Below, piece by piece: positions 1,547 through 16,047 of a stretch of 17,685 nucleotides of DNA. The stretch comes from Ruminococcus flavefaciens. Its GTDB lineage: Bacteria > Bacillota > Clostridia > Oscillospirales > Ruminococcaceae. The translations under genes and the position numbers were made by a program. Every line of letters starts with the position of its first letter. Within the stretch, counting starts at the first letter, position 1. The DNA is taken from NCBI GenBank assembly GCA_002373775.1, contig DFJW01000099.1, forward strand, positions 1-17,685, in the 5' to 3' direction. The notes beneath the pieces are model-generated. The model saw only the letters and a list, made by a program, of their open reading frames with translations, did no database searches and was not told the DNA's origin.

Positions 1547-1565
1547 AGGCTATGTATATTATGGA

Positions 1566-1595
1566 TTGGACAAATATATAAAACCGATGTATAAT
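1566..1595 (+). promoter_or_regulatory. Predicted promoter of metY
   Basis: TTGGAC (1566-1571), an 18-base spacer and TATAAT (1590-1595), leaving a leader of roughly 50 bases. That leader is too short for a SAM riboswitch, and none is recognisable. Confidence 0.6.
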
Positions 1596-1651
1596 ATAGG
1601 CATACCAAACGAATACAACTCAAATTCATAAAATATCAGGAGGAATCAACA

Positions 1652-2941
1652 ATGGCTGAAAATAAACTTCATTTCGAAACATTACAGCTCCATGTAGGAC
1701 AGGAGCAGGCAGATCCCGCAACAGATGCAAGAGCAGTACCGATATACGCTACAACATCTTATGTATTCCACGATTCACAGCATGCTGCTGATCGTTTCGG
1801 GCTCAAGGATGCAGGAAATATCTACGGAAGACTTACAAATTCCACACAGGATGTATTTGAAAAGCGCATAGCTGCACTGGAAGGCGGAGTTGCAGCACTT
1901 GCAACGGCTTCAGGAGCAGCTGCTATCACCTACACTATACAGGCACTTGCAAAGGCAGGTGAGAATATCGTAGCTTCCAAGACCATTTACGGCGGCACAT
2001 ATAATCTCCTTGCACACACGCTTCCGCTTTACGGTATCACAACAAAGTTTGCAGATCCCGATGCCGAGGGCAGCTTTGAGGCAGCTATAGATGAGAATAC
2101 CAAGGCGCTGTACATCGAAACACTGGGCAATCCGAATTCCAACGCCATAGATATCGAAAAAATAGCTGAGATAGCACATAAACACGGTATCCCACTGGTA
2201 GTTGACAATACCTTTGCAACACCTTATCTTGTTCGTCCGATCGAATACGGCGCAGATATAGTAGTTCATTCCGCAACAAAGTTCATAGGCGGACATGGTA
2301 CTGCTATCGGAGGAGTTATCGTAGACAGCGGAAACTATGACTGGGCATACTCCGGACGCTATCCGTGGATATCAGAGCCCAATCCGAGCTATCACGGTGT
2401 AAGCTTTACAGCTGCCGCAGGTCCGGCTGCATTTGTGACATATATCCGTGCTATACTTCTCCGCGATACAGGTGCGACTCTTTCACCTTTCCACGCTTTC
2501 ATCTTCCTTCAGGGACTTGAGACACTCTCACTCCGCGTAGAGCGTCATACATCAAATGCCAGCAAGATAGTGGAGTATCTTGCAGCACATCCGCAGGTAG
2601 AAGCTGTACATCATCCTGTTCTTGAATCCGAACCGAGCCATGAGGTGTACAAGAAGTACTTCCCCAACGGCGGCGGAAGCATCTTTACATTCGATATCAA
2701 GGGCACTGAAGATGATGCAAAGAAGTTCATAGACAATCTTGACATCTTCTCACTGCTTGCAAATGTAGCAGACGTCAAGTCCCTTGTTATCCACCCGGCT
2801 TCGACTACACATTCACAGCTCACAGAAGCTGAACTTGCAGAGCAGGGCATCAAGCCGACTACTATCAGACTGTCAATAGGCACTGAGCATATCGACGATC
2901 TCATCAATGCACTCGACAAGGCATTTGCAGCTATCAGATAA
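1652..2941 (+). CDS. metY: O-acetylhomoserine aminocarboxypropyltransferase (O-acetylhomoserine sulfhydrylase)
   Basis: A 429-residue PLP enzyme of the Cys/Met metabolism family. It joins O-acetylhomoserine with sulfide (or methanethiol) to give homocysteine (or methionine) in the cytoplasm. The N-terminus FETLQLHVGQE, the YGRLTNSTQDVFEKRIAALE segment, ASGAAAITY, VVDNTFATPYLVRP and the PLP lysine in SATKFIGGHGTA (Lys210) are visible. The C-terminal ADVKSLVIHPASTTH and RLSIGTEHIDDLI are typical of the MetY branch; cystathionine gamma-synthases are usually nearer 380 residues. An AGGAGG site precedes the ATG. It is a single-gene unit with its own promoter and terminator, and converges on the recombinase/spoVT reading frame. 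Confidence 0.95.
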   Translation: MAENKLHFETLQLHVGQEQADPATDARAVPIYATTSYVFHDSQHAADRFGLKDAGNIYGRLTNSTQDVFEKRIAALEGGVAALATASGAAAITYTIQALAKAGENIVASKTIYGGTYNLLAHTLPLYGITTKFADPDAEGSFEAAIDENTKALYIETLGNPNSNAIDIEKIAEIAHKHGIPLVVDNTFATPYLVRPIEYGADIVVHSATKFIGGHGTAIGGVIVDSGNYDWAYSGRYPWISEPNPSYHGVSFTAAAGPAAFVTYIRAILLRDTGATLSPFHAFIFLQGLETLSLRVERHTSNASKIVEYLAAHPQVEAVHHPVLESEPSHEVYKKYFPNGGGSIFTFDIKGTEDDAKKFIDNLDIFSLLANVADVKSLVIHPASTTHSQLTEAELAEQGIKPTTIRLSIGTEHIDDLINALDKAFAAIR

Positions 2942-2954
2942 CAGAAATTGAAGT

Positions 2955-2994
2955 AAAAAAGGCTGTCCGGTAAATCTACGACCGGGCAGCCTTT
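2955..2994. terminator. Bidirectional terminator between metY and the recombinase/spoVT 3' end
   Basis: Stem AAAGGCTGTCCGGT (2958-2971) with ACCGGGCAGCCTTT (2981-2994), one G-T pair and a 9-base loop. On the minus strand the stem is followed by six T, a strong terminator for the spoVT 3' half. On the plus strand the T-run is interrupted but still serves metY. Confidence 0.85.
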
Positions 2995-2997
2995 GCT

Positions 2998-3447
2998 TTA
3001 TTCTATCTGCTTTGCAAGGAACTGCGCAGCAGCATTTATCAGACTCTTTTTCAGATCAGTGGACTCCGTGCTTTTCTCACTTGTGAGGAACACGACTGCT
3101 CCGGATACATCTCCGGCAGTTATGATCGGCACGGCAGCAACAGCTTTTCTGTCCGAGCCTTCCGCCGGGAAGAAATCATGCACCGGACTTCCTGCCCTGT
3201 AATACTGGGCCCTGTTTTCCATAAGCTCTTCCAGCTGACCAGAGACGCGCCTTTCGACTATCTCTTTTTTGGGCATGCCTGATGCGGCAATGGCGTGATC
3301 CTTATCGAATATGATAACAGGACATCCTGCCGTCTTATACATTACTTCCGCAACGTTTGCGGCATTTTCGCTCATTTCGCTTATTGCTGAATATTTTCTG
3401 AATATTACTTCGCCTTCATTGCTTGTGTATATCTCTAAGGGGTCACC
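2998..3447 (-). other. spoVT: 3' half of spoVT (codons 31-179 of the reconstituted gene)
   Basis: From the shared Gly-Asp-Pro codons (3439-3447) to the stop, this stretch encodes GDPLEIYTSNEGEVIFRKYS and a GAF-like SpoVT_C domain. No in-frame start with a ribosome binding site was seen just after the junction, so it is expected to be made only as the tail of the recombinase. Together with 11502-11600 it gives a 179-codon frame that matches SpoVT along its whole length, as I recall the family. SpoVT is a DNA-binding regulator of late forespore genes in spore formers; many Clostridia also carry it or a close AbrB-like relative. Confidence 0.9.
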
Positions 3448-5106
3448 GTTATTTACACTGTTGACACAGAGAGGAACGTCCATGTTCCTTCCGGAATTGC
3501 CGTCAGGTTTTCCACAGTGCAGGAGCTTGTCGATATCGGCTTTGAGCTTTACCTCAACGCTGTCATTGCGGACGGTTATCCTGTCAACTATGAAGGCAAC
3601 ATCATTCTTGTCGAGAGACTGCTTTTCAATCATGCTGTCAAATATCTCCAGCACATCCTTAGCGATACGGTTTGCCTTGACCATTGTATTGTGCTTGTCG
3701 GCGGTCATCTGCAACTGATTCCGGAGACCGGTTATCTTCTTTGTGAGAGCCTCTATTTCTTCCGCATAGACCTCTTCGGTCATCCCGGCGCGTTCGGGAT
3801 TCCTTGCGATATCACGCGCCTGCTGACGAGTGAGTATCTTTATCTGGAGCTTTGCTTCCTCTATTTCGGAGTTGATGCTCTCCACCAGAGACTTGCTCTG
3901 CTTTGTTTCTTTCTGCTGTTTCTGTATGCTTTCGCGGAGTTTAGCCAGCATGTCAGCTGAGTTTTCCCGTATCCGCAGGATATAGCTTTTCAGTATCCTG
4001 TCCAGTACATCCGTCCTGATGTAGTGTGAAGTGCATCCGCTCAGTCCGTGTTTGTGATAGCTTGAACAGTGGTAGGCACTGAGATTCGGACGACTCAGCG
4101 AAAACATGGGTGCACCGCAGTCGCCGCAGAAAAGACAGCCTGAGTAAACGTTGTCGTATTTCCGCTTGCCGTTGTATCCGGACTTGCTGCGCAGTTTTAT
4201 CTGTTCCTGTACCTGCGAGAAAAGCTTGTAGTCGATGAGCGGTTCGTGGAAGTCCTCGAACACCAGCTGGTCTTCCGCAGAGACTTTTTCCTCCGGACCG
4301 TTGATGCGTTTCCGTCGGTATTTTCCCTGCCGGAGAGTGCCGATGTAGAAATCGTTCTGCAAAATCTGTCCCACAGTTACGGCTGACCACTTTTTACTTG
4401 CGCGGATACGGCTCTCGCGTCCGCTGGCAGTTATTATCTCATCGCGTCTTGCTGAGGGAGTGCTGATACATTTTTCAGTCAGATACTCCGCGATCTTATG
4501 GTATCCCCAGCCTTTGATATAGAGGTCGAATATAGTCTTCACCACATCTGCTGCTTCTTCATCAATGATATAACGATTGCCTATGCTGTGATTAGGGAGG
4601 AAGGTGTAGCCGTATGGCGCACCGCACTGCCACTGTCCTTCTTCCTGTCTGCGTTTCACTACCGCTTTAACCTTTCTCGACGTATCGGTGACGGGCATTT
4701 CGTTCATCAGGAAGTGGAAAGATATCATCTGCCAGTTGTCGCTCTCAGAGGAATAGTCGATGTTGTCACCGATAGATATTATCCTTACCCCGGCGTCGCG
4801 CAGGTCTTCCAATTCAACAAGCCCCTTGCTGTTACGGCGGCTGAATCGTGAGAAGTCCTTCACGATAAGTATGTCATATTCGTGTGACATCATCTTCCGG
4901 CGCAGTTTCTGGTATCCTTCGCGCTGTTCGAAGGTGTAGCCGGAACGGTCACGGTCTTCGTAGAAGTCCACATCACGATCCGGGAAATGACGGCTGACAT
5001 AATCGGATATGATGAGCTTCTGGTTTTCGATGGAGGTATTATCGCGGTCCAGTTCAAGGTCAACGGAGATACGGCAGTATCCTGCGATGTTGCATCTGAC
5101 GCTCAT
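2998..5106 (-). CDS. Large serine recombinase fused in frame to the SpoVT C-terminal domain
   Basis: A 702-residue frame. Residues 5-155 are a resolvase-type catalytic domain: YCRIS with likely nucleophile Ser14, DRDRSGY and KDFSRFSRRNS. Residues 160-300 are the recombinase domain (GQWQCGAPYGY, WSAVTVGQILQNDFYIG). A zinc ribbon follows (CGDC at 327-330, partners Cys347 and Cys358), then a coiled coil (385-470) and a C-terminal region (about 480-530) as in TndX/TnpX-like recombinases. The recombinase proper ends near residue 553. Gly-Asp-Pro 554-556 lie on the att core, and the last 146 residues are the remaining part of SpoVT (EGEVIFRKYS, GCPVIIFDKDHAIAASG, VPIITAGDVSGAVV). The start at 5106 was chosen over 5244 because GGAAGG and a promoter (5156-5184) lie between them. 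It would integrate and excise the surrounding element. The chimeric tail is a consequence of insertion. Confidence 0.93.
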   Translation of the reverse strand: MSVRCNIAGYCRISVDLELDRDNTSIENQKLIISDYVSRHFPDRDVDFYEDRDRSGYTFEQREGYQKLRRKMMSHEYDILIVKDFSRFSRRNSKGLVELEDLRDAGVRIISIGDNIDYSSESDNWQMISFHFLMNEMPVTDTSRKVKAVVKRRQEEGQWQCGAPYGYTFLPNHSIGNRYIIDEEAADVVKTIFDLYIKGWGYHKIAEYLTEKCISTPSARRDEIITASGRESRIRASKKWSAVTVGQILQNDFYIGTLRQGKYRRKRINGPEEKVSAEDQLVFEDFHEPLIDYKLFSQVQEQIKLRSKSGYNGKRKYDNVYSGCLFCGDCGAPMFSLSRPNLSAYHCSSYHKHGLSGCTSHYIRTDVLDRILKSYILRIRENSADMLAKLRESIQKQQKETKQSKSLVESINSEIEEAKLQIKILTRQQARDIARNPERAGMTEEVYAEEIEALTKKITGLRNQLQMTADKHNTMVKANRIAKDVLEIFDSMIEKQSLDKNDVAFIVDRITVRNDSVEVKLKADIDKLLHCGKPDGNSGRNMDVPLCVNSVNNGDPLEIYTSNEGEVIFRKYSAISEMSENAANVAEVMYKTAGCPVIIFDKDHAIAASGMPKKEIVERRVSGQLEELMENRAQYYRAGSPVHDFFPAEGSDRKAVAAVPIITAGDVSGAVVFLTSEKSTESTDLKKSLINAAAQFLAKQIE
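3437..3447. repeat. Left att core, 11-bp direct repeat
   Basis: AAGGGGTCACC on the plus strand, identical to 11500-11510. It covers the Gly-Asp-Pro codons of the SpoVT frame plus two bases of the next codon. On the element side lies the arm ACACTGTTGACACAG (3455-3469); on the spoVT side lies GTATA (3427-3431). Confidence 0.88.
3455..3469 (+). repeat. Element-end inverted repeat, left arm of attP
   Basis: ACACTGTTGACACAG, 7 bases inside the left core. Its reverse complement matches 11481-11495 at 14 of 15 positions. In the excised circle the two arms would flank the 11-bp core in a 52-bp dyad, the usual size of a large-serine-recombinase attP. Confidence 0.8.
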
Positions 5107-5155
5107 TTCTGACACTTCCTTCCATGTTTTCTGAGCGGAATATGTGCGCACTATA

Positions 5156-5184
5156 ATTCTATCATTTTGCAGCATGAAAAGCAA
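5156..5184 (-). promoter_or_regulatory. Predicted promoter of the recombinase
   Basis: On the minus strand TTGCTT (5179-5184), a 17-base spacer and TAGAAT (5156-5161). Transcription would start near 5149, downstream of the long-frame ATG at 5244, which supports the start at 5106. Confidence 0.6.
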
Positions 5185-5205
5185 TCGGAAACAGTAATAA
5201 AAATC

Positions 5206-5225
5206 CTGGTAAATACTGGTAATAT
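5206..5225. repeat. Tandem 10-bp repeat just upstream of the recombinase promoter
   Basis: CTGGTAAATA (5206-5215) followed directly by CTGGTAATAT (5216-5225), the shared CTGGTAA recurring at exactly one helical turn. It ends 21 bases upstream of the -35 box, a position suited to a regulator binding one DNA face. No match to a named operator is claimed. Confidence 0.45.
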
Positions 5226-5247
5226 GAGGCGGACATTGCAGCACTCA

Positions 5248-5454
5248 TCAGCCTGCAAGATTATTGAGTAACAGCCCTTCTGCTGAAGTGAAAAGATCAC
5301 CGTTTCCGGATCTGAAAACTGCAACGGTGTATTCTCCGCCCTCCCAGACAGAGCAGAGTCTTCTGACTTCTGCATCAGTTCCAGGATCCAGCTGATCTTC
5401 ATTTGTGAGCCATATCTCGACAGTCTTTGTATTTTCTCTGAAGCTAAGTTCCAT
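5248..5454 (-). CDS. 68-residue protein of unknown function next to the recombinase
   Basis: A small acidic protein, MELSFRENTKTVEIWLTNED at the start and YTVAVFRSGNGDLFTSAEGL near the end. It resembles short conserved proteins that I recall near serine recombinases and in mobile elements of Clostridia, but I know no assigned function. AAAGGAG lies 9 bases before the ATG at 5454, which favours this start over 5562. It is on the recombinase strand, 141 bp upstream, with a separate recombinase promoter between. Small size and position make it a candidate excision (directionality) factor or recombinase regulator; this is inference only. Confidence 0.7.
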   Translation of the reverse strand: MELSFRENTKTVEIWLTNEDQLDPGTDAEVRRLCSVWEGGEYTVAVFRSGNGDLFTSAEGLLLNNLAG

Positions 5455-5810
5455 ATCACACCACTCCTTTGATAACAGTTTTGGAAGATATCGTATGTGA
5501 TATTCACTTTGTTCACATCCTGCAAACAGTCTGAGAATTGGACTATGTGTATTAGTATGCACAAAATATTATACTATCTGTATGATTATGCCGCGTTCAA
5601 TGAGGGATCCGGGGGCGGTGCTGAAATCCAAGTCTGTCTCATTTCAAAACATGAAAAATACGTTGAAACAACCGGTGTTCGCGATATTTGATGCTTTTGG
5701 AAGACGGTATATCTACTGATCCGAGCTGTTCCACGGGCTTTTGGCATGAAGCCAAAATCAAATTATAGTTCAAAAATAATACTTGTTGATGTATGTTTGC
5801 ATAATGACTT

Positions 5811-5822
5811 TTTACATGTAAA
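5811..5822. promoter_or_regulatory. Perfect 12-bp palindrome upstream of the polysaccharide cassette promoter
   Basis: TTTACATGTAAA, 48 bases before the -35 box at 5871. A candidate operator for a dimeric regulator; no specific family is claimed. Confidence 0.4.
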
Positions 5823-5870
5823 CGAAATTGTGCTGAATAGACAAAATTGGTTTGTGAAAATTATGGATAC

Positions 5871-5900
5871 TTGACATAAACCGGCAGAATGTATTATAAT
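5871..5900 (+). promoter_or_regulatory. Predicted promoter of the polysaccharide signalling cassette
   Basis: TTGACA (5871-5876), an 18-base spacer and TATAAT (5895-5900), a near-consensus housekeeping promoter. The leader is about 80 bases and contains two ATTATAAT copies (5943-5950 and 5956-5963) inside a longer dyad, ACATTAT (5941-5947) with ATAATGT (5962-5968), just before the ribosome binding site. This may affect translation or bind a regulator. Confidence 0.75.
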
Positions 5901-5985
5901 TAAGATATAAGACTATATAAATACGATATGTATATTTTTGACATTATAATACACTATTATAATAATGTAAAGTGAGGAAACAAAA

Positions 5986-7479
5986 TTGAAAAACAGCGGA
6001 AAAGATACTATGGATCTTAAATCACTTATCTCATTGCTGCTCAGTAAGATCTGGCTGATAATCCTTGCGGCGATATTGGGCGGAACGGCAGCTTTTTGCA
6101 TTTCTAAGTTTGCCATGCCGCTGAAATACGCATCGCATATCTCGATGTATATCCAGAGCTACACAGCTTTCAGTGAGAATCCGGATCAGAACATCAACAA
6201 CATCAACAACTCAAAACAGCTTATCAATACATACATGGAAGTTATGAAGGATGACGCGGTCATGAACGCAGTCGCTGATGAACTGAGCGGCGAGTTCGAG
6301 GAAAGCATTCTTAAAAACTGCTTCTCATTTTCAGACGGGAAGATCACTCCTTCGTCTCTGCGCTCATGTATCAAGATAACGTCCGTAACTGATACCAGCG
6401 CACTTAAACTCACAGCTACTACCAAGAATGCAGAGGTTTCCGCAGCGATCTGCAATGATATTGCAAAAGTCGCTCCCGACTATCTCCATGACGCTGTTGG
6501 TGTCGGACAGATAAACACTATAGATACAGCAAAGGTATATGACACACCGGTAGCGCCTAATAAGAAAAAGAATGCTCTTATCGGAACGCTTGCAGCTGCT
6601 ATGCTTGCGATCATGATAATAATCGCCGTGGATTTCTTCGACAATACAGTCAAGGATGCAGCATGGCTGGGGGACAGTTACAAGAAAGCGATAATCGGCG
6701 AGATACAGCAGTTCGATGATGATAAGAAGAGAAAGAAAGATGCTGATGACAAACACATAAAGCTCACCGACAAGAATGTGCCGTTTGCGGTGGTCGAGAG
6801 CTACAAGTCTATCAGGACTAACATATCATTTGCCCTTTCAACTACTGATAAGAAGATATTCATAGTATCTTCTGCAAATCCTGCTGAGGGAAAGTCCACA
6901 TCATCCGCAAATATAGCAATAGCTCTTGCACAGGGCGGCAATAAGGTACTTCTTATCGACGCAGACCTGAGAAAGAGCTGTCAGCATAAGATATTCGGGC
7001 TGAAAAACAAGAAGGGACTTTCAACAGCTATCAGTAAAATGGCGTCAGTCGATGACTGCATCTCAAAGAATGTCATGGATAATCTTGATGTAATGACATC
7101 AGGACCGCTGCCTCCGAATCCTTCCGAGCTCCTTGCTTCGAAGAATATGGAGACGCTGCTTGAACAGCTTGGCGAGAAGTATTCGGTAATAGTTATCGAC
7201 ACTCCGCCGGTAAATGTTGTGACCGATGCAATGGAGCTTGCGAATAAGGTATCAGGCATCATAATGGTCGCACGTTACGGCAGGACAAAGATAGACGATA
7301 TCGACGATGCTATGAAGCGTATCGAGTTTGCTCAGATGAACATGCTCGGATTCATACTCAATGACATAAAGACCGGACGCAGCGGTAAGTATTATTCGAA
7401 ATACAGATACGATAAGAAGTACGGCTACGGAAACAGCGATACTTCCGATGACGAGAAGGAGACTTCTGAAAAGAAGTGA
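5986..7479 (+). CDS. Wzz-type chain-length regulator fused to a bacterial tyrosine kinase (CpsC-CpsD type)
   Basis: A 497-residue membrane protein. TM1 (about 20-42) and TM2 (about 197-218) bracket an outer Wzz-like loop, with a Pro-containing segment before TM2. The cytoplasmic half is a BY-kinase with Walker A SANPAEGKST (Lys303), Walker A' VLLIDADLRK (321-330) and Walker B VIVIDTPPV (401-409). The C-terminal Tyr cluster (469, 470, 473, 475, 479, 481) is the usual autophosphorylation site. Such proteins control length and export of capsular or extracellular polysaccharide. In most Firmicutes the two halves are separate genes. The start is a TTG at 5986 preceded by GTGAGG; an ATG at 6010 is the alternative but has a poor ribosome binding site. 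First gene of a three-gene rightward cassette. Confidence 0.9.
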   Translation: MKNSGKDTMDLKSLISLLLSKIWLIILAAILGGTAAFCISKFAMPLKYASHISMYIQSYTAFSENPDQNINNINNSKQLINTYMEVMKDDAVMNAVADELSGEFEESILKNCFSFSDGKITPSSLRSCIKITSVTDTSALKLTATTKNAEVSAAICNDIAKVAPDYLHDAVGVGQINTIDTAKVYDTPVAPNKKKNALIGTLAAAMLAIMIIIAVDFFDNTVKDAAWLGDSYKKAIIGEIQQFDDDKKRKKDADDKHIKLTDKNVPFAVVESYKSIRTNISFALSTTDKKIFIVSSANPAEGKSTSSANIAIALAQGGNKVLLIDADLRKSCQHKIFGLKNKKGLSTAISKMASVDDCISKNVMDNLDVMTSGPLPPNPSELLASKNMETLLEQLGEKYSVIVIDTPPVNVVTDAMELANKVSGIIMVARYGRTKIDDIDDAMKRIEFAQMNMLGFILNDIKTGRSGKYYSKYRYDKKYGYGNSDTSDDEKETSEKK

Positions 7480-7517
7480 TCTTTCTTGAAATCCGGGATG
7501 AGAAAAGGCGGTAAACA

Positions 7518-8195
7518 ATGCTTACTGAATATCATTGCCATGTTCTTCCGTCCATTGATGACGGTTCGGACAGCGTTGAAACATCACTTGCTATGCTTGA
7601 GGTCATGAAGCAGCAGGGCGTGGAAAGAGTGGTCTTTACTCCGCATTTCTATGCTCACAGAGAAGAGTCTGTGGAGAGCTTCATTGAAAAGCGTGCAGCT
7701 GCTTTTGACGCTATCAAAGACAAGTCGCCTATCAGAGATATGCGGCTCGGAGCAGAAGTGGCAGTTGAACATGGTATTTCCGAAGTCAGGAATATCGAAA
7801 AGCTGGCAATGCAGGGGACGAAGCTCATTCTTATGGAACTTCCGTACCGTGGGTATAAGGAATGGATGTCCGAGGAGATATATAACATCTCAGCAGAGTT
7901 CGGGCTGAAAATAGTTTATGCCCATATCCACCGGTATACCGAGTACTACACAAAGTCACAGCTGGCAGGCGTCCTTGACAGGAACTCTGTTTATCAGATA
8001 AACAACGAGGCTTTCGGAAGCTTTTCCTCAAAGCGGTTTGTAAAAGGTCTGATGAAGGAAGGATATCCGCTGATTTTCGGGAGCGACGCTCACAATCTTA
8101 CGTCCCGGCGTCCGAACTGGGATCTTCTTATGAAGAAATGCAGCAGGGAAGAGATAGAAAAGTCAGACAGTACCATGGACAGTTACTTTGTCTGA
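7518..8195 (+). CDS. PHP-type protein-tyrosine phosphatase (CpsB/YwqE type)
   Basis: 225 residues with the polymerase/histidinol phosphatase metal-binding fold. The N-terminal TEYHCHVLPSIDDGSDS (His6, His8), VVFTPHFYAHREE, the internal LGAEVAVEHG, YAHIHRYTEY and the C-terminal LIFGSDAHNLTSR supply the metal ligands of the family. It is expected to dephosphorylate the Tyr cluster of the preceding kinase, completing the phosphorylation cycle that tunes polysaccharide export. It starts 38 bp after the kinase stop, so co-transcription is likely. AAAGGCGG lies before the ATG. Confidence 0.9.
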   Translation: MLTEYHCHVLPSIDDGSDSVETSLAMLEVMKQQGVERVVFTPHFYAHREESVESFIEKRAAAFDAIKDKSPIRDMRLGAEVAVEHGISEVRNIEKLAMQGTKLILMELPYRGYKEWMSEEIYNISAEFGLKIVYAHIHRYTEYYTKSQLAGVLDRNSVYQINNEAFGSFSSKRFVKGLMKEGYPLIFGSDAHNLTSRRPNWDLLMKKCSREEIEKSDSTMDSYFV

Positions 8196-8264
8196 CATAA
8201 CAGATCATATCTTGTGTTTATCATAAAGTCAGGCTTATTATCGATCACTGAAGGAAGGATGTAT

Positions 8265-8789
8265 ATGAGTAATTTGCTTATTTTAGGTGCCGGACAGTAT
8301 GGGCTGGTGGCAAAGGAAATAGCTGTATCAATGAAAAGCTTTGACAGGATCAATTTTTTAGACGACAACAGTGAGATAGCGATAGGTAAGATAGGGGATA
8401 TTGCAAAATTCAGAGATGAGTATGACATGGCGGTAGTTGCTATCGGTAATTCTTCACTTCGGTTGAAACTGATAGATGAGCTTTGCAGGATAGGATATAA
8501 AGTTCCGTATCTTGTTCACGAACGTGCATATGTATCTCCTTCTGCCAAGATCGGAATGGGTTCGTTTATTGAGCCAATGTCAGTGGTACATGCTTCTGTA
8601 GTCGTGGAGAAAGGTTGCATTATTTCAGCAGGTGTTGTTCTTAATCATAACAGCACGATACATGAAGGCTGCCATATCAATTGCGGTTCTGTAGTTAAGG
8701 CGCGAGCAGTGATAGAGCCTAACACAAGGACAAGTTATAATGAGATATGTGACACACAATACAAGAACGCTGCTTTAGTTGCAGTATAA
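8265..8789 (+). CDS. Sugar O/N-acyltransferase, NeuD/PglD-like
   Basis: 174 residues. The N-terminal LLILGAGQYGLVAKEIA is the small nucleotide-sugar-binding fold of NeuD/PglD proteins. The second half is a left-handed beta helix with hexapeptide steps (AYVSPSAKIGMGSFIEP, ASVVVEKGCIISAGVVLNHN, CHINCGSVVKARAVIEP), with the His of LNHN near the usual catalytic place. These acetylate sugar precursors for surface glycans. It is shorter than typical members (about 200-210), and the closing pattern of the helix is replaced by NEICDTQYKNAALVAV, so the last coil may be lost. AAGGAAGG lies 6 bases before the ATG at 8265, which decides this start. It follows the phosphatase by 69 bp. Confidence 0.82.
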   Translation: MSNLLILGAGQYGLVAKEIAVSMKSFDRINFLDDNSEIAIGKIGDIAKFRDEYDMAVVAIGNSSLRLKLIDELCRIGYKVPYLVHERAYVSPSAKIGMGSFIEPMSVVHASVVVEKGCIISAGVVLNHNSTIHEGCHINCGSVVKARAVIEPNTRTSYNEICDTQYKNAALVAV

Positions 8790-8792
8790 GTT

Positions 8793-8816
8793 ATCCCCGA
8801 GCCGTGGCTCGGGGAT
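8793..8816. terminator. Hairpin between convergent acyltransferase and dockerin genes
   Basis: ATCCCCGAGCC (8793-8803) and GGCTCGGGGAT (8806-8816), a perfect GC-rich stem of 11 bp (closing loop effectively larger than the two middle bases). The T-run on either strand is poor, yet position between two converging stops suggests a bidirectional terminator. Confidence 0.6.
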
Positions 8817-8836
8817 TATTAATCTATGGTGGTGCA

Positions 8837-11056
8837 TTATTGAACGTTGATCTTTGTTCCGCCCCATTCTACAACGGAGAATCCTTTTCTTTCAAAGGTG
8901 GGAAGTTCCTGAGGTTCGATATCCACAGCATCTTCAAGCGGAACATAAGCCATGAAGATACGGCACTCGCTGTCAGGTGCCGGAGTGATCTTCAGTTTAG
9001 CTGAATTCGTATACGCATCTCCCTGGAAGGAAATGAGGTTATACGCATTATGCTCCATGAGCGGCAGCCAGTAGACGATAAACTCGTTCATTTCATCTTC
9101 GGTCAGTCCCATATATGTGAGTTTTTCTTTGAGGAAGCTTTCGGTATCGCATCCGGCAACACAGAATCCCTTGGAGAGATCGAAGTGCGTGCGCACATTT
9201 ACAGCATCCCAGAAAAGGTATCTGTGACGACTTCCGTCGGCCTTGTTCAGAAGTGTGCCGTCCGGATAAGCGACCACATCCCAGCCGTTGTTATATTTCG
9301 GATATGTGGTAGAGAGATCTGCTTCTGTGAGTTCAAGTTCCACATGAACATCGGTTTCCTGTTCGGGGTAGAGATAGATGACCGGTTTGTCTGCAAGTTC
9401 TCCCCAGAACATATTCATTTCGCCGTCGTCACCGCGGACCTGTATCCACCCGCAGCGTCCTTCAAAATCCGTGAATACCCAGTCATTGTTATCCTTCATA
9501 TACCCAAGTTCCTTGACTCTGGTTTCAGGTATCGTCAGGAGCACAGGATAGCTGGTGTCCGGACCAGTGTACATTTTGATCGGTCTGATTATAAAGAGAG
9601 TCGATGGATATTCCGTTCTTACTTCCGGCTCAACATAGTTTTTATAAGTCTCGATAAGCTTCTGTTTCATGATGCAAAGGTCAAACACATCCAGCTTATT
9701 GTCTTTGCAAAAATCAGCAGCTTTCCAGTTGACGAGCTGAGCTTCCGGAGACTTTATGAGCCATTTCTGAAGCAGTACCACATCAGCGATATTGAACTCT
9801 CCGTCGCCGTTGACATCGCCTGTAGGAGAAGACTTCAGCCGGAATACAACATCAGCAGAACCATTGTCAAATCTTGATACTTTTATGCTGCCTTCCGGGA
9901 TGATCTTTCCGTTGTAATAGCCCATTTGATCGGAATTATCCGGGAATACATAGCCTTCCGGCAGACCATTTTCATTCAGACTGAATGAGAAACTGTCTGC
10001 GTCAAAGAATCTGCCAATGTTGTTATCCACTATCGAAGGATTGGACTCCATTACAAGTACCGGGCCGGTGGAAACTTCACCTTCTGGTGTACTCATACTG
10101 ATATTCGTTGATATGGAGGGATGAGTATCTGTACCGAACTCTATCGGTTCACCTGTGTCATAGTCCACAAGAGTTGCTCTCATCTGACCGTCAAGCAGGA
10201 TCGTCTGTGCATCATTAAAAACGGCACAGTCGGCAGTCCGTGTTTCCATGACTTCCATGTTGCCGAACATTTTACCGTAGTTGTATGAGATCTTGGCACA
10301 GCCGTCATTTACTGCTTTATAAGCGTATACTGTGTTTATGGCACCACCGGCTGTGGCAAAGGTATCAACAGAACAGCAATTACTTATTTCATCAAGCTCA
10401 AAGGTGCCTTCACCGTTGTTATCTTCATACCACTGATAAGGTGTGCCGGCTGAGTGAGTGAGGCAGAATACTACATAGTTGTTCCTGACAGAAAGGTATC
10501 CGTTATCATCAATGTAAGATTTATACTCTGTAACACAGTCAGGAAGCCAGCTGTATATATCGGTCTCTGTAACATTAAGGTCATTATCAGCGTTGAAGGT
10601 GTAATATGCAGACGCATGGCTGTATCCAAGATCCAGAGAAGTGGATTTTGCCCATGTATCAATTACGGCGATGTCGATATCTCCGGAAGTTGTTGGCTTG
10701 TATACATATACTTCAAAAATTACGCCCGTTTCATCGGATCTGTAGACATCATGGCTGCATGTTTCCATGACATTTTCTGTCGTCATAAGCCGATAGCGTA
10801 ATTCGTCTGATTGTTCATTATAGGAATTTGCGTTTTCAAGGACAATACAGATCAGACCGCTTTCAATATGCGTTGCTCCATAGGTGTTGCGGAATTCTAA
10901 AGCAGACTCAAAGTCGGACGGTACCCAGTCCTGCAAAGAAGGCTGATCTACAGCGGAGACAGAGGCTGGAGAAAGAAAAACGCTGCTGTTTAATGAAAGC
11001 GGCATGATCGTGGTCGCAGCTGCCATTATCGCAGCTGTCAGTTTTCGGAACTTCAT
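8837..11056 (-). CDS. Secreted dockerin protein with internal dockerin, SH3-like and KPVIYLYPE-type C-terminal domain
   Basis: 739 residues. The signal peptide spans about 1-35 (MKFRKLTAAIMAAATT, cut near Ser-Val-Ser-Ala). A long N-terminal part (about 40-405) that I do not recognise has several Cys and acidic stretches. A type I-like dockerin occupies about 411-469: TGDVNGDGEFNIADVVLLQK and LDVFDLCIMKQKLI, two calcium loops of Ruminococcus type. An SH3-like module follows (about 485-540, MYTGPDTSYPVLLTIPETRV, GWIQV), then a C-terminal domain (557-739) beginning KPVIYLYPE and ending FERKGFSVVEWGGT, a pattern I recall in secreted clostridial proteins without a function. No glycoside hydrolase is recognisable. 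The ATG at 11056 follows GGTAGGTGA; the upstream GTG at 11065 is part of that ribosome binding site. It lies inside the element. Confidence 0.88.
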   Translation of the reverse strand: MKFRKLTAAIMAAATTIMPLSLNSSVFLSPASVSAVDQPSLQDWVPSDFESALEFRNTYGATHIESGLICIVLENANSYNEQSDELRYRLMTTENVMETCSHDVYRSDETGVIFEVYVYKPTTSGDIDIAVIDTWAKSTSLDLGYSHASAYYTFNADNDLNVTETDIYSWLPDCVTEYKSYIDDNGYLSVRNNYVVFCLTHSAGTPYQWYEDNNGEGTFELDEISNCCSVDTFATAGGAINTVYAYKAVNDGCAKISYNYGKMFGNMEVMETRTADCAVFNDAQTILLDGQMRATLVDYDTGEPIEFGTDTHPSISTNISMSTPEGEVSTGPVLVMESNPSIVDNNIGRFFDADSFSFSLNENGLPEGYVFPDNSDQMGYYNGKIIPEGSIKVSRFDNGSADVVFRLKSSPTGDVNGDGEFNIADVVLLQKWLIKSPEAQLVNWKAADFCKDNKLDVFDLCIMKQKLIETYKNYVEPEVRTEYPSTLFIIRPIKMYTGPDTSYPVLLTIPETRVKELGYMKDNNDWVFTDFEGRCGWIQVRGDDGEMNMFWGELADKPVIYLYPEQETDVHVELELTEADLSTTYPKYNNGWDVVAYPDGTLLNKADGSRHRYLFWDAVNVRTHFDLSKGFCVAGCDTESFLKEKLTYMGLTEDEMNEFIVYWLPLMEHNAYNLISFQGDAYTNSAKLKITPAPDSECRIFMAYVPLEDAVDIEPQELPTFERKGFSVVEWGGTKINVQ

Positions 11057-11106
11057 GTAATTCACCTACCATTTCTGAAATTAGCAGTATAGTGCTGCTT
11101 AACCTC

Positions 11107-11135
11107 ATTATATCATGTCACAGTTGCAATTGCAA
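11107..11135 (-). promoter_or_regulatory. Predicted promoter of the dockerin protein gene
   Basis: On the minus strand TTGCAA (11130-11135), a 17-base spacer and TATAAT (11107-11112), about 50 bases before the ATG. Confidence 0.65.
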
Positions 11136-11276
11136 TAGAAAACGCAAAAAAACTGCCTGTATTTTGGCTTTTTTAGGTTTATGATAACGTGTATAGAATG
11201 CAGAAAGGCTATATATGTATTCTGTCAAAGCGGAATGGAACTATCACTTTTTTGTGTATATGAATACCTTCAACTG

Positions 11277-11314
11277 AAACTGGCGTGACTCAAAATGTGA
11301 GCCGCGCCAGTTTT
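11277..11314. terminator. Hairpin upstream of the dockerin gene, possible bidirectional terminator
   Basis: AAACTGGCG (11277-11285) with CGCCAGTTT (11305-11313), plus an inner CTC/GAG pairing. TTTT follows on the plus strand. On the minus strand it could stop readthrough from the spoVT 5' half into the element. Confidence 0.55.
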
Positions 11315-11326
11315 AGTAATACAATA

Positions 11327-11363
11327 AACAGGCGTATCCGACAAAAAGCCGGATACGCCTGTT
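11327..11363 (-). terminator. Terminator after the spoVT 5' half
   Basis: Perfect 14-bp stem AACAGGCGTATCCG (11327-11340) with CGGATACGCCTGTT (11350-11363). On the minus strand it is followed by TTTATTGTATT and lies 40 bases past the stop of the truncated frame. In the excised circle it would serve as the recombinase's own terminator. Confidence 0.65.
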
Positions 11364-11480
11364 ATACGTTATTCTCAGTCCTCATGCGGAGAAACTGAAT
11401 GATTATGTAATGCTGTGGTTGGACATACCAATATGAGCTCTGCATCCCAATTCTAACATAGCTATGCAGAAATCCCACTC

Positions 11481-11495
11481 CTGTGTCAACACTGT
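11481..11495 (+). repeat. Element-end inverted repeat, right arm of attP
   Basis: CTGTGTCAACACTGT, 4 bases inside the right core and inverted relative to 3455-3469 with one mismatch. The dyad axis of the joined site falls inside the 11-bp core. Confidence 0.8.
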
Positions 11496-11499
11496 CTGA

Positions 11500-11510
11500 A
11501 AGGGGTCACC
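11500..11510. repeat. Right att core, 11-bp direct repeat
   Basis: AAGGGGTCACC, the second copy of the core at 3437-3447, in the same orientation, so recombination between them would excise rather than invert. On the spoVT side TATAC (11517-11521) mirrors GTATA at 3427-3431, giving a predicted attB dyad of about 32 bp. Confidence 0.88.
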
Positions 11511-11682
11511 CTCTCGTATACGCATAGTGCGGCGGATCTCTTTGGGTATAACGACTCTGCCGAGATCGTCTATCCTTCTGACTATTCCAGTAGCTTTCAT
11601 AGTATTACCTCCGAAAAAAATGGTTGCGGTAATATTATCTGCCGGAATTCGCTTAATATACGTTTTGTGAACAAGTGCTGTC

Positions 11683-12894
11683 TTATGATAAGCTCTTTAC
11701 AAGTTCTGAAAAACGAGCCATTGCCTCGATAGTGCGGCCTTTGTCGCCGAACGCGGTAAGTCTGAACCAGCCTTCACCGTTTTTACCGAAGCCTGCACCC
11801 GGAGTTCCGACAACAGCAATTTTTTCCAGCATGAGATCAAAGAAGTCCCAGCTTTTCATATCGCATGGGCACTTGAACCATATGTACGGTGAATTTATAC
11901 CGCCGGTGAACTTGACGCCGAGCTTTGTCATGGTATCGGCAATTATGCGTGCATTCTCCTGATAATACGCGATATTTTCGTGTACCTGTTTCAGACCTTC
12001 TTCTGTGAAAACAGCGGCTGCGGCACACTGAACAGGGTAGGACACACCGTTGAATTTGCTGCCTTGTCTGCGTCCCCAGAGCTGAGAAAGGCTGACTTGT
12101 GTGCCGTCGGATGCGGTCACTTTAAGTGCATCCGGTATAACAGTATAACCGCATCTCATACCAGTGAATCCGGCTGTCTTTGAGAGTGAGCACATTTCAA
12201 TAGCTGTCTCTTTAGCACCTTCAATGCAGTAAATGCTTCTCGGAACATCGGGATCGGTTATGAAAGCCTCATATGCTGAATCATAGATTATCACAGCATT
12301 ATTCTTTCGTGCGTAGTTGATCCATACCTTCAGCTGATCTCTGGTGTACACTGAACCGGTGGGATTATTAGGTGAGCAGAGGTAGATGATATCAGCGTGT
12401 ACGTTTTCGTCGGGCATAGCTGCGAATCCGTTTTCCTCATTCGAGTCTGCATAGATTATTTTTCTGCCGCTCATAAGATTGGAATCGACGTATACCGGGT
12501 ATGCAGGATCAGTAACGAGTATCACATTGTCATCTCCGAAAATATCAACGATATTTCCGCAGTCTGATTTTGCTCCGTCGTTTATGCGAATCTCGTCAGG
12601 GAAAACGTCAGCCCCGAAACTCTTGTAGTATCCGGATACTGCTTCACGCAGGAAATCATAACCTGCACCGCTGTCTTCGTATCCGCGGAATGTCTCTTTC
12701 ACACCCATTTCATCGCAGCCTTTTTTCATGGCTTCGATGACTGCCGGTGCGATCGGCAGAGTCACATCTCCGATACCCATTCTTATGATATCGGCATCGG
12801 GATGCTCGTTTTTAAAAGCTTTTATCTTTTTTGCGATATTGATAAATAAATAGTTCTTTTCAAGTTTCAAGAAATTTTCATTCAGCTGCGGCAT
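11683..12894 (-). CDS. dapL: LL-diaminopimelate aminotransferase
   Basis: 403 residues, class I/II PLP aminotransferase. It converts tetrahydrodipicolinate directly to LL-diaminopimelate with glutamate as amino donor, bypassing the succinylase or acetylase steps of lysine and peptidoglycan precursor synthesis. Seen: MGIGDVTLPIAPAV, KETFRGYEDSGAGYDFLREA, SPNNPTGSVY, IYDSAYEAFI and the PLP lysine in SLSKTAGFTG (Lys239). The C-terminal GTPGAGFGKNGEGWFRLTAF is also typical. Its ATG overlaps the end of dapF by 13 bp, with AAAGGAGA inside dapF, so the two are translationally coupled. Confidence 0.96.
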   Translation of the reverse strand: MPQLNENFLKLEKNYLFINIAKKIKAFKNEHPDADIIRMGIGDVTLPIAPAVIEAMKKGCDEMGVKETFRGYEDSGAGYDFLREAVSGYYKSFGADVFPDEIRINDGAKSDCGNIVDIFGDDNVILVTDPAYPVYVDSNLMSGRKIIYADSNEENGFAAMPDENVHADIIYLCSPNNPTGSVYTRDQLKVWINYARKNNAVIIYDSAYEAFITDPDVPRSIYCIEGAKETAIEMCSLSKTAGFTGMRCGYTVIPDALKVTASDGTQVSLSQLWGRRQGSKFNGVSYPVQCAAAAVFTEEGLKQVHENIAYYQENARIIADTMTKLGVKFTGGINSPYIWFKCPCDMKSWDFFDLMLEKIAVVGTPGAGFGKNGEGWFRLTAFGDKGRTIEAMARFSELVKSLS

Positions 12895-13760
12895 ATGACA
12901 TTCTCCTTTGCTTCATTAAGTGCGCTGTCGTCCACTGTACCTTCAAATACAAGAGCGGCAGGTCCTTTCATAATAACTGTTCCGTCTGATCTGTAGGTTA
13001 TCTGTAGATCTCCACCGCGGAGATGCACAAGTACTTCTTCATCGTACCGGCAGATCCCGTTGAGTACAGCGGCAACTACCGTTGCACATGTTCCTGTACC
13101 GCAGGCGAATGTCTCGCCGCTTCCGCGTTCCCATACGCGCATTTTCAGTGTCCTGCTGTCAATGACTTCGCAGAATTCCGTATTTACACGGTTCGGGAAG
13201 AGGGGATGGTTCTCGAATGAAGGACCGATCTTTTCGAGGTCAAGACTATCGGTGTCATCGGTGAAGATAACAGCATGCGGATTCCCCATAGAAACACAGG
13301 TGATATCATATGTGCTGCCGTCAACCTCTACAGGCTGACTTATAAAACGGTCAAGTTCACTGCGTACAGGAATGTCGGCAGGGGATAGTATCGCTTTTCC
13401 CATATCGACAGTCACAGATGAGACTTTTCCGTTTTCGGTGGATAATCTCAGGTACTTTATACCTGAATTTGTTTCAAGAGTTATGTCAGTCTTATCGGTA
13501 AGGCCTTTATCGTAAACATATTTTCCTATGCAGCGAGTAGCGTTGCCGCACATCATAGCCTCAGAGCCGTCCGCATTGAATATGCGCATGCGGAAGTCAG
13601 CCTTGTCAGAAGGCATAATGAGCACCAAACCGTCACCGCCTATGCCTTTATGGCGGTCACTGAGCACTACAGAGACTTTTTCGGGTTCAGTGACAGTTTC
13701 CTCAAAACAGTTTACATAGATATAGTCATTGCCGATGCCGTGCATTTTTGTAAACTTCAT
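12882..13760 (-). CDS. dapF: Diaminopimelate epimerase
   Basis: 292 residues, cofactor-independent racemase that converts LL- to meso-diaminopimelate, the step after DapL. Both catalytic cysteines are present: Cys71 in MMCGNATRCIGKY and Cys220 in ETFACGTGTC. The start MKFTKMHGIGNDYIYV is the family N-terminus. The ATG at 13760 has GGGAG upstream, while the ATG at 13784 would add eight unrelated residues. It is the first gene of a dapF-dapL operon with its own promoter; in a genome where spoVT is intact, spoVT would be the next gene downstream. Confidence 0.96.
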   Translation of the reverse strand: MKFTKMHGIGNDYIYVNCFEETVTEPEKVSVVLSDRHKGIGGDGLVLIMPSDKADFRMRIFNADGSEAMMCGNATRCIGKYVYDKGLTDKTDITLETNSGIKYLRLSTENGKVSSVTVDMGKAILSPADIPVRSELDRFISQPVEVDGSTYDITCVSMGNPHAVIFTDDTDSLDLEKIGPSFENHPLFPNRVNTEFCEVIDSRTLKMRVWERGSGETFACGTGTCATVVAAVLNGICRYDEEVLVHLRGGDLQITYRSDGTVIMKGPAALVFEGTVDDSALNEAKENVICRS

Positions 13761-13796
13761 ATTCTTCTCCCTTTTGTGACTCACGGGAGAGCAGCG

Positions 13797-13842
13797 TGTA
13801 CAGTATCAATTCCATTTGCTGCTAACTCAAAGGGACTGTACA
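13797..13842 (-). promoter_or_regulatory. Inverted repeat in the dapF leader
   Basis: TGTACAGT (13797-13804) and ACTGTACA (13835-13842), perfect 8-bp arms 30 bases apart, the second at the predicted transcription start. The loop also holds GCTGCT that could pair with GAGCAGC next to the first arm, so two exclusive folds are possible. No lysine riboswitch consensus was recognised. Confidence 0.35.
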
Positions 13843-13847
13843 TCACT

Positions 13848-13876
13848 ATTATATACTATATTTTATAAAAAATCAA
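13848..13876 (-). promoter_or_regulatory. Predicted promoter of dapF-dapL
   Basis: On the minus strand TTGATT (13871-13876), a 17-base spacer and TATAAT (13848-13853), leaving a leader of about 80 bases. Confidence 0.7.
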
Positions 13877-13940
13877 TAGCATTATTAACTTAATTAAAAA
13901 ACAAAAAAGCGGCGCATGCTGTACCAGATACAAATAAGAA

Positions 13941-13969
13941 CCCCGGAGTGACCTGATATCACTTCGGGG
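13941..13969 (-). terminator. Terminator after the small membrane protein gene
   Basis: CCCCGGAGTGA (13941-13951) with TCACTTCGGGG (13959-13969), one G-T pair. On the minus strand it is followed by TTCTTATTTG. It lies 28 bases past the stop of the membrane protein gene. Confidence 0.75.
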
Positions 13970-13997
13970 CTTAATTTATCAGTATGACCGGAGACGT

Positions 13998-14474
13998 TTA
14001 CCGTTTCCTGAAGAGTTCTTTCAGTACCATTGCTGCACCAGCGGCAGTGAGACCGAACATTATGATGAATGTGTATGCACTGGTCGATTTCCAGTAAACA
14101 TTGGTCGTGAGGAAAACGCTCAGCAGGATTATCGCGATACCTATCGCAAGAACTATCCAGCCGAAGATCTTTCTGTCCATCAGAAAGAGCATACCTATGC
14201 CGATTATTGAAGGCAGAAGTATGAGACCGTTAGAGAAGTGAAAAGAACCGATATGATACGAATAGAAGCCCCAGCTGCTTGTTACATTGATATTCTGCAA
14301 TATCATGTAAAGTCCGCCGGCGAGCATAACAAGACCAACGAAGAATCTGAGCAGATCACCGTCAGTGCTGCTTTCACTTCTGTAGCTGTTGTGAGAGCTG
14401 TCGGAGCTTATGTTGTTATCACGGAGTTCCTTGTAGATCCTGTCCAGCTCCTTATCGCCTGTTGATTTTGCCAT
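13998..14474 (-). CDS. Small integral membrane protein, function unknown
   Basis: 158 residues. A soluble, Ser-rich N-terminus (MAKSTGDKELDRIYKELRDN, then SSDSSHNSYRSESS) is followed by four predicted membrane helices (about 43-61, 78-97, 103-122, 130-150) and a basic end (KELFRKR). I do not recognise a family. AAGGAGG precedes the ATG at 14474, preferred over the upstream frame start at 14501. It has its own consensus promoter and terminator, so it is a single-gene unit. Confidence 0.8.
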   Translation of the reverse strand: MAKSTGDKELDRIYKELRDNNISSDSSHNSYRSESSTDGDLLRFFVGLVMLAGGLYMILQNINVTSSWGFYSYHIGSFHFSNGLILLPSIIGIGMLFLMDRKIFGWIVLAIGIAIILLSVFLTTNVYWKSTSAYTFIIMFGLTAAGAAMVLKELFRKR

Positions 14475-14532
14475 AGTAAATCCTCCTTTATTCAGAATCA
14501 TCCCTATATTGCAGTGCTTTCACTGCAAATAC

Positions 14533-14571: not shown

Positions 14572-16047
14572 TTATGCCTGATATTTAGGCTCGCAGGTGA
14601 GATTTACACCGAGACGTTTGAATATTCTTTCGTCTACGGGCGAGAGGATAACAGTTGAGTGAACCTCACATCCGCGGAGTTTTGAAATCTGCTGCATTGC
14701 AAGCTTTGCATTCTCATCAGTGTTGGCACAGATCGAAAGTGCAAGAAGAGTCTCATCGGTATGTATACGCGGGTTGTTATTTCCGAGATGATTTACTTTG
14801 AGGTCGGTAATAGGCTCGATAACGTGAGGAGACATAAGGAGAACGGAATCATCAAGACCGGCAAAGTATTTAAGAGCGTTGAGCAGAAGAGCTGAAACAG
14901 CGCCGAGAAGATCGGATGTCTTGCCTGTGAGTATAGTTCCGTCAGGAAGCTCCATAGCGGCAGCAGGACCGCCGGTCTGTGCCTCGCGCTCAAGAGCGGC
15001 TGAAACGCATTTTCTGTCCGATGTTGTGACATTAGCCTGCTTCATGAGCAGTTCAAGTTTATATACTTCATCTTCAGATATGAGACCTTTTTTGTGGTCG
15101 CACATTGCAGTATAGTATCTGCGGATTATCTCATCCTTAGCAGCACGGCATACTACCTCATCGTCGATGATGCAGTTGCCAGCCATGTTGACGCCCATAT
15201 CCGTAGGCGACTTATAAGGAGATACGCCGAGAATATTCTCAAACATAGCATTGAGTACAGGGAATATCTCAACATCGCGGTTGTAGTTTACAGTAGTCTT
15301 TCCGTATGCTTCAAGGTGGAAAGGATCTATCATATTAACGTCGTTGAGGTCGGAGGTAGCTGCTTCATATGCGATGTTTACAGGGTGACGGAGTGGGAGG
15401 TTCCATATCGGGAAGGTCTCGAATTTAGCATATCCTGCGTTCACACCGCGCTTGTGCTCATGATAGAGCTGAGAAAGGCATGTAGCCATTTTACCGCTTC
15501 CGGGACCGGGAGCAGTGATAACTACGAGACGGCGTGTGGTTTCAATATAGTCGTTCTTGCCGTAGCCTTCGTCGCTGATGATAAAAGGAAGGTTAGAGGG
15601 ATAGCCTTTGATATGGTAATGGTGGTAGACCTTGATGCCGAGAGCTTCAAGTCTGCTCTGGAAGGCATCAGCCTGAGGCTGTTCATTGTACTGTGTCAGT
15701 ACAACACTGCTGACATAGAGGCCTATCTTCGTGAATACATTGAAGAGGCGTATTACGTCAACATCGTAAGTTATGCCAAGATCTCCGCGTATCTTATTCT
15801 TTTCGATGTCGCCTGCATTGATGACAATGACGATCTCAGCCTCATCTTTCAGCTGGAGAAGCATCTGAAGCTTGCTGTCTGGCTTGAAGCCGGGGAGTAC
15901 CCTTGATGCGTGATAGTCGTCAAACAGCTTTCCGCCGAATTCAAGGTAGAGCTTGTCTCCGAACTGAGCAATGCGCTGACGAATGTGTTCTGACTGCATT
16001 TTCAGGTATTTTTCGTTGTCAAATCCGATCCTGCTTTCTGTATTCAT
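14572..16047 (-). CDS. DUF1846 (UPF0371) family protein
   Basis: 491 residues, full length for the family. Seen: MNTESRIGFDNEKYLKMQ, FGGKLFDDYHASRVLPGF, the phosphate-loop-like TAPGPGSGKMATC (GPGSGKM at 181-187), KFETFPIWNLPLRHPVN, DMGVNMAGNCIIDD and LNALKYFAG. The family is common in Firmicutes, and I know of no established function. The glycine-rich loop suggests nucleotide binding but lacks the Ser/Thr after Lys of a standard Walker A. AGGAGGT precedes the ATG at 16047. It is transcribed alone from the promoter at 16078-16106. No clear terminator follows; the next promoter overlaps its 3' side. Confidence 0.9.
   Translation of the reverse strand: MNTESRIGFDNEKYLKMQSEHIRQRIAQFGDKLYLEFGGKLFDDYHASRVLPGFKPDSKLQMLLQLKDEAEIVIVINAGDIEKNKIRGDLGITYDVDVIRLFNVFTKIGLYVSSVVLTQYNEQPQADAFQSRLEALGIKVYHHYHIKGYPSNLPFIISDEGYGKNDYIETTRRLVVITAPGPGSGKMATCLSQLYHEHKRGVNAGYAKFETFPIWNLPLRHPVNIAYEAATSDLNDVNMIDPFHLEAYGKTTVNYNRDVEIFPVLNAMFENILGVSPYKSPTDMGVNMAGNCIIDDEVVCRAAKDEIIRRYYTAMCDHKKGLISEDEVYKLELLMKQANVTTSDRKCVSAALEREAQTGGPAAAMELPDGTILTGKTSDLLGAVSALLLNALKYFAGLDDSVLLMSPHVIEPITDLKVNHLGNNNPRIHTDETLLALSICANTDENAKLAMQQISKLRGCEVHSTVILSPVDERIFKRLGVNLTCEPKYQA

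Follow-up and report, generated by a model that had tools for sequence, protein, structure and literature searches.

A recombinase element of a probably mobile family splits spoVT in Ruminococcus flavefaciens and is predicted to exchange the C-terminus of its own recombinase

Ruminococcus flavefaciens (Ruminococcaceae, Clostridia) is represented here by a 17,685-nucleotide stretch of DNA (contig DFJW01000099.1, assembly GCA_002373775.1), referred to as the window, in which a segment of 8,063 bp interrupts the sporulation gene spoVT at codons 31-33 (Gly-Asp-Pro). The segment is very probably a recombinase element of a mobile family, and its recombinase, fused in frame to the spoVT 3' half, is predicted to excise it as a circle, to restore spoVT, and to exchange its own C-terminus. 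The evidence, as read from sequence, comprises the two junctions, the in-frame fusion, inverted arms at the element ends, an alternative C-terminal tail, recurrence of the split among relatives, and the presence of both intact and split spoVT in one assembly (MC2020).

An earlier note on this DNA had placed the two spoVT halves on the same strand in the right order, with an identical 11-bp repeat at both breaks, and both observations hold (Table 1). The repeat, GGTGACCCCTT, has two copies only across the 2.84-Mb assembly, namely the two cores; a reversed-pattern control gives one match. Computed joins bear out the proposed excision product: fusing the halves at the central GA gives a stop-free spoVT of 179 codons and a released circle of 8,063 bp. 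NCBIfam spore_V_T matches each half under its whole-protein cut-off, because each sequence is half a protein, and the first 33 SpoVT residues are identical in most relatives with an intact gene. No second SpoVT_C domain is found in the window's genome; the split one is its sole SpoVT_C. With sporulation gene-intervening elements the locus shares an interruption within the target's coding sequence, an internal site-specific recombinase, a short direct repeat at both ends, and in-frame rejoining. The spoVT 5' half continues past its core as a 65-residue hybrid open reading frame (ORF; window 11403-11600), composed of 33 SpoVT residues and the tail described below.

The intervening DNA does encode a serine recombinase, as the note had stated (Pfam Resolvase, Recombinase, and Zn_ribbon), but three features had been overlooked: the in-frame run-on of the recombinase into spoVT, the inverted arms, and the conserved tail (11403-11501). 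The recombinase ORF on the minus strand (2998-5244) reads directly into the spoVT 3' half, so that the enzyme carries the SpoVT sensor domain. Along this ORF the domains lie at residues 53-205 (Resolvase), 229-351 (Recombinase), 367-422 (zinc ribbon), and 623-748 (SpoVT_C), the first three being the combination that characterizes large serine integrases. The start at 5106 was picked from an alignment in which M47 is invariant. Just inside each element end sits an inverted-repeat arm (CTGTGTCAACA and TGTTGACACAG), and the symmetry is centered on the GA of GGTGACC; the two element ends together therefore form one symmetric attachment site (attP). In sequence, this layout, with a central dinucleotide that is not palindromic between two inverted arms, matches the attP of large serine integrases. 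Among 18 genomes, the arms of one element match at 17.0 of 26 positions, compared with 15.3 when arms are swapped between genomes and 6.7 +/- 2.2 when they are shuffled (own versus swapped, permutation p = 5e-5). One genome (G038, loci L068/L042) combines the left arm of one recombinase clade with the right arm of the other, which suggests that two elements occupy or adjoin one site. A small protein is encoded close to the recombinase: a homologue occurs no more than 1.9 kb upstream in 38 of the 41 loci with enough upstream DNA (the misses are G038, G378, and G045; two further loci were too short, and truncated loci were left out). Neither Pfam nor NCBIfam gives a match to the window's copy.

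Past the 5'-side core, in the same frame as the recombinase, lies a tail of ~30 residues. A similar stop-ended tail is found at 16 of 17 5'-side ends (the exception, G049, has lost it, and that of G057 is divergent), and also at the ends in G008, G354, G046, and G061 (genus or family) and in a distant Clostridia genome, G418. Outside the arm, its variability at the three codon positions is 0.34, 0.31, and 0.52, and the median ratio of nonsynonymous to synonymous substitution rates is 0.40, a weak test based on 81 of 153 pairs of short, partly saturated sequences (18 genomes; G049 and G057 excluded, G061 and G418 unused). Natural recombinases that end in such a tail instead of SpoVT_C also exist, namely P0039, P0073 (core Gly-Ser-Pro), and L078; together with a junction in genome G039, discussed below, they are consistent with a C-terminus swap. 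The genome of L078 has an intact SpoVT, and the L078 tail is similar to the one in G418, which is distant to a similar degree. L078 has no terminal repeat, so it does not demonstrate a closed circle.

The recombinase gene can thus end in either of two ways, and we infer that each end belongs to one state (integrated or excised). With attP placed within the 3'-terminal part of this gene, the tailed form would integrate and the fused form would excise. In the proposed cycle, recombination of both cores at the central GA would release the circle, restore the 179-codon spoVT, and replace the borrowed SpoVT sensor domain of the recombinase with its own ~30-residue tail. The tailed enzyme would integrate the circle into spoVT; the fused enzyme would excise the element, the small protein encoded upstream probably serving as its directionality factor, and the SpoVT domain of the fused enzyme may influence excision.

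Within the genus, 66 of 80 genomes have SpoVT_C, counting that of the window. In 41 of these spoVT is intact, in 23 it is joined to the recombinase, and in two (G039, G059) the contig is broken at the core. The sorting was done by script for 64 genomes and separately from locus data for G003 and G061; among the 23, 19 fit the script pattern and four (G019, G046, G077, G079) were recognized by eye in the script's output. Since the same junction recurs in 23 of 66 genomes (plus the two broken at the core), the split is not a chance arrangement. The junction is in frame in 21 of the 23, including four seen just to the contig end (G036, G053, G057, G079), and frameshifted in G073 and G046. An error of assembly or binning is suggested by the state of the window's genome, a draft of 115 contigs with 87% completeness and 5.84% contamination; it is extremely improbable, given the identical split inside single contigs of G019, G048, G072, and G354. 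The recombinase itself is present at E <= 1e-100 in 32 of 125 genomes of the genus. A family-wide search (297 genomes, 251 with SpoVT_C) places the fusion in nine other genera among the matches listed; there, frames longer than 700 residues occur in eight other-genus genomes and are fusions in all eight, as is contig-truncated G151. Shorter frames (311-501 residues) before SpoVT_C in six other-genus genomes were rejected as intact spoVT with a chance upstream frame. The same fusion recurs in distant Clostridia at 38% identity, and 117 of the best 120 of 146 database proteins, some partial, join a recombinase to SpoVT_C at that site, the query having been drawn from this recombinase family itself. 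Two further arrangements were observed: G060 (L120, 1365-2063 and 2883-3419) has a truncated recombinase remnant just upstream of intact spoVT, possibly the scar of a past element, and G061 (L155) has, besides an intact spoVT on another contig, an additional 5' half of the gene that runs into a tail across a Gly-Asn-Pro core, possibly from a second population or a remnant.

Evidence for both states comes from MC2020 (G417; same coordinates as G008), which is labeled Anaerotruncus; G008 groups within the window's genus, and the record is not marked as a metagenome-assembled genome. Its assembly contains an intact spoVT on a 294-kb contig and both split junctions: one contig ends 158 bp into the spoVT 3' half, and another starts 95 bp inside the 5' half. 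These pieces are identical to the intact spoVT of MC2020 and share a 10-bp core, GGCGACCCCT; in the DNA fetched from other genomes, the best matches to the 95- and 158-bp pieces reach 91.4% and 94.3%. In G039, one contig runs from recombinase through core to tail, which is a circle-type junction, and the spoVT 3' half begins another contig. This pattern occurs in one of 125 genomes of the genus; a reversed control pattern matches in none of the genomes listed.

Several observations weigh against the reading of an element that is cut out by its fused recombinase. The circle junction is absent from the MC2020 assembly, in which a second identical spoVT could in principle be present, and neither a joined spoVT nor a circle junction is assembled in the window's own genome. 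The G039 junction differs by one base from its other end, so a strain mixture or tandem copy is possible. Some relatives have damaged copies: G073, G046, G405, and G394 are frameshifted, G049 is without its tail, and G060 retains just a remnant of the recombinase. In the window's element the recombinase is the sole mobility gene recognized by Pfam. Database protein P0059 has no SpoVT_C, yet its post-core sequence is unlike the tail motif. A protein search with the P0039 tail alone returned just P0039 (one of three candidates). AlphaFold models are too poor for judging the tail: the tail form P0039 has a mean predicted local distance difference test score (pLDDT) of 54.1 and a predicted template modeling score (pTM) of 0.29, and the window's fusion has a mean pLDDT of 57.8 and a pTM of 0.29, with the SpoVT_C part its most confident stretch.

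Table 1. Features of the split spoVT locus and its element (window coordinates)
Feature	Position	Strand	Basis or remark
spoVT codons 1-33, AbrB-type N-terminal part	11502..11600	-	NCBIfam spore_V_T 3.6e-19 on ORF 11403-11600
spoVT remaining codons, SpoVT_C sensor domain	2998..3438	-	Pfam SpoVT_C (PF15714) 3.6e-34
Core copy GGTGACCCCTT, recombinase end	3437..3447	-	Predicted crossover GA at 3444-3443; center of arm symmetry
Core copy GGTGACCCCTT, spoVT 5' end	11500..11510	-	Predicted crossover GA at 11507-11506
Large serine recombinase	3448..5106	-	Whole ORF 2998-5244, in frame with SpoVT_C; Pfam Resolvase, Recombinase, Zn_ribbon_recom, SpoVT_C
Left attP half, arm CTGTGTCAACA	3444..3473	-	16/26 positions match reverse complement of right half
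Right attP half, arm TGTTGACACAG	11477..11506	-	Inverted-repeat partner of left arm
Alternative recombinase C-terminal tail FQTVLTQEWDFCIAMLELGCRAHIGMSNHSIT	11403..11501	-	Would be read when ends join as circle; conserved in relatives
Small protein MELSFRENTKTVEIWLTN..., candidate directionality factor	5248..5454	-	Conserved position near recombinase; putative role
Cargo: Wzz + AAA_31 ATPase (chain-length regulator/tyrosine-kinase type)	5986..7479	+	Pfam
Cargo: CpsB/CapC	7518..8195	+	Pfam
Cargo: PglD_N + hexapeptide transferase	8214..8789	+	Pfam
Cargo: dockerin type I protein	8837..11065	-	Pfam; same-end homologue in G046 (51%), G048 (39%)

The family to which this element belongs behaves as one that moves horizontally with variable cargo, which in the window consists of capsule-type genes and a dockerin protein. 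Vertical inheritance would make recombinase divergence follow host divergence, and within the genus it does not: with SpoVT_C as proxy for the host and in-frame fusions only, the two distances are uncorrelated (Mantel r = 0.005, p = 0.46, 22 genomes), and the recombinases of G043 and G011 are 97% identical at a SpoVT_C divergence of 31.5%. Once eight genomes from other genera are included, r rises to 0.54 (p = 1e-4); relatedness is therefore visible solely at the wider scale. A recombinase that does not track its host within the genus points to a mobile element and not to a stably domesticated skin. The earlier picture of an intervening recombinase element in spoVT therefore stands as regards the interruption itself, backed by the intact gene and both split junctions in MC2020; as a fixed developmental insert it is not supported. 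Where both ends lie on one contig, spans obtained by subtraction of coordinates are ~8 (window), 14 (G354), 18 (G019), 46 (G048), and 54 kb (G072), and the cargo includes a radical-SAM/PqqD cluster (G019), type I restriction-modification (G354, G072), and a polysaccharide flippase-type gene (G048). The G019 cluster (L047, 12640-18901; radical SAM, PqqD, methyltransferase, ABC exporter, and nucleotidyltransferase) resembles a biosynthesis cluster for ribosomally synthesized and post-translationally modified peptides within a spoVT element. Other genes are seen upstream of the recombinase on contigs where the far element end is not visible: relaxases next to it in two relatives (L087, L089), a C39-peptidase ABC exporter (L086), restriction-modification (L090), and a glycosyltransferase (L083). 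In L087 (G126), a reverse transcriptase domain protein (12640-14532) adjoins the relaxase.

Prophages seem to use the same spoVT site. A viral contig (L080, IMGVR_UViG_3300001914_000157, 1556-8632) encodes an integrase fused to SpoVT_C, along with an ORF that we take to be a tail sheath. Among phage records, the two closest are MT836658.1, with the fused form (a 716-residue frame ending in SpoVT_C), and MT839487.1, which stops before the junction; the best 15 of 205 plasmid matches to the recombinase are ~25-30% identical. No phage structural genes are found by Pfam among the scanned ORFs of the window's element. A second viral contig that matched the attP pattern (L130) was judged a chance match, its record being without a recombinase. 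In G031 (L112, 7312-9192), a related recombinase lies ~500 kb from intact spoVT, and its 3' end continues into unrelated sequence, which suggests that the family may also insert elsewhere. Variable cargo, horizontal spread, the viral contig at the same site, and the G031 copy outside spoVT are all expected of an ordinary mobile element that finds in spoVT a convenient place to land; fusion in frame and tail swap would then be by-products without regulatory meaning. That account has somewhat less than an even chance of being correct, since the frame is preserved across recombinases only 38% identical and the tail is conserved as protein; at least the tail is constrained, which a working integrase alone would suffice to explain.

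The window's copy might, in turn, be the immobile remnant of a large capsule element that has lost its middle. G048 shares the recombinase-side genes (regulators 79% and 84%, transferase 55%) and the dockerin at the other end, yet spans ~46 kb against 8 kb here, and a relative with the same cargo, G046, is frameshifted just past the core. Such a remnant is unlikely, in that everything excision would need is open and recognizable here: the frame of the recombinase, both arms and cores, the tail, the small ORF, and the two parts of spoVT. As for the host neighborhood, a DUF1846 gene (14572-16047) lies on the 5' side of spoVT in the window and ~0.5-8 kb downstream of it in several relatives, so the neighborhood has been rearranged. 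Genes of the window that we presume to be dapL and metY have no counterpart beside spoVT at E <= 1e-20 in stretches fetched from other genomes, most of which extend just ~0.7-1.5 kb from an intact gene.

The earlier note had considered sporulation rare or doubtful in this lineage, which gene content contradicts: of the 80 genomes of the genus, 79 have Spo0A_C, 77 have SpoIVA, and 67 have small acid-soluble spore protein (SASP) genes, the window's genome being positive in each. Ruminococcus bromii is reported to be a spore former (PMC5814915). In Clostridioides difficile, SpoVT is described as acting in the forespore and as required for mature spores (PMC3789822). As long as spoVT is split, its host would presumably lack SpoVT and form spores poorly, until excision of the element. 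These circumstances raise the alternative of a skin-like developmental element, which the host would keep stably and every sporulating cell would excise to supply SpoVT in time. Retained spo0A, spoIVA, and SASP genes, the need for SpoVT in C. difficile spores, a split gene that is still open in most split hosts, and the reported excision of elements from other sporulation genes during sporulation (PMC5595907; PMC10747680) would all fit. The alternative is nonetheless improbable: the recombinase does not follow the host within the genus, cargo differs between elements, and an excision event in the forespore, the compartment where C. difficile SpoVT works, would pass to the spore, which does not hold for the mother cell, a terminal cell. 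A more elaborate possibility, which is speculative and doubtful, is that of a self-rewiring enzyme: the captured SpoVT ligand sensor would gate excision at commitment to sporulation, and leaving would return the sensor and provide the integration-competent tail. If so, the forespore setting would make this a germline switch, heritable and reversible, unlike the mother-cell-only skin type.

The skin elements in sigK of Bacillus subtilis and C. difficile are removed precisely by a serine recombinase, which restores a sporulation gene. The spoVT element differs from them in its target, its horizontal movement within a genus, and its many unrelated cargoes. Interrupted sporulation genes already reported are sigK, spsM, spoVFB, gerE, and yabG (PMC5595907; PMC10747680). 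The closest description is that of gin in gerE of Bacillus cereus ATCC10987 (PMC5595907), a non-phage element that likewise splits a sporulation regulator, has serine recombinases and a short direct repeat, and reconstitutes its target on excision. It is 28.6 kb long and lies in a mother-cell gene, and the available part of that source does not mention a recombinase-target fusion; the target of the spoVT element is a forespore gene (in C. difficile), and its attP lies inside the recombinase gene. For yin in yabG of Clostridium botulinum, a pure culture is reported to hold integrated and excised forms (PMC10747680), and the MC2020 assembly suggests the same here; the yin target is different, and its recombinase gene follows the target 5' end, whereas that of the spoVT element abuts the 3' half in frame. 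An attP inside a coding gene, such that integration alters the C-terminus of the protein, is described for the integration-dependent immunity of mycobacteriophage BPs (PMC4557955). Judged by its fused and tail forms, the spoVT element would have the same arrangement, except that the BPs repressor loses 33 residues and here the recombinase itself would trade a tail for a host sensor domain. Literature searches found no spoVT-intervening element (the broader ones, among the matches listed), in keeping with the note's view of spoVT as an undescribed target, and a narrow search found, among the matches listed, no serine recombinase that swaps its own C-terminus.

In this genus, about a third of the sampled spoVT-bearing genomes (23 of 66) have the gene split at one codon by a mobile element. 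This may be part of the reason that gut bacteria of this kind have sporulation genes and yet are rarely observed to sporulate. A natural recombinase with an integration-dependent C-terminus would also offer a direct test of what decides whether a serine integrase integrates or excises.

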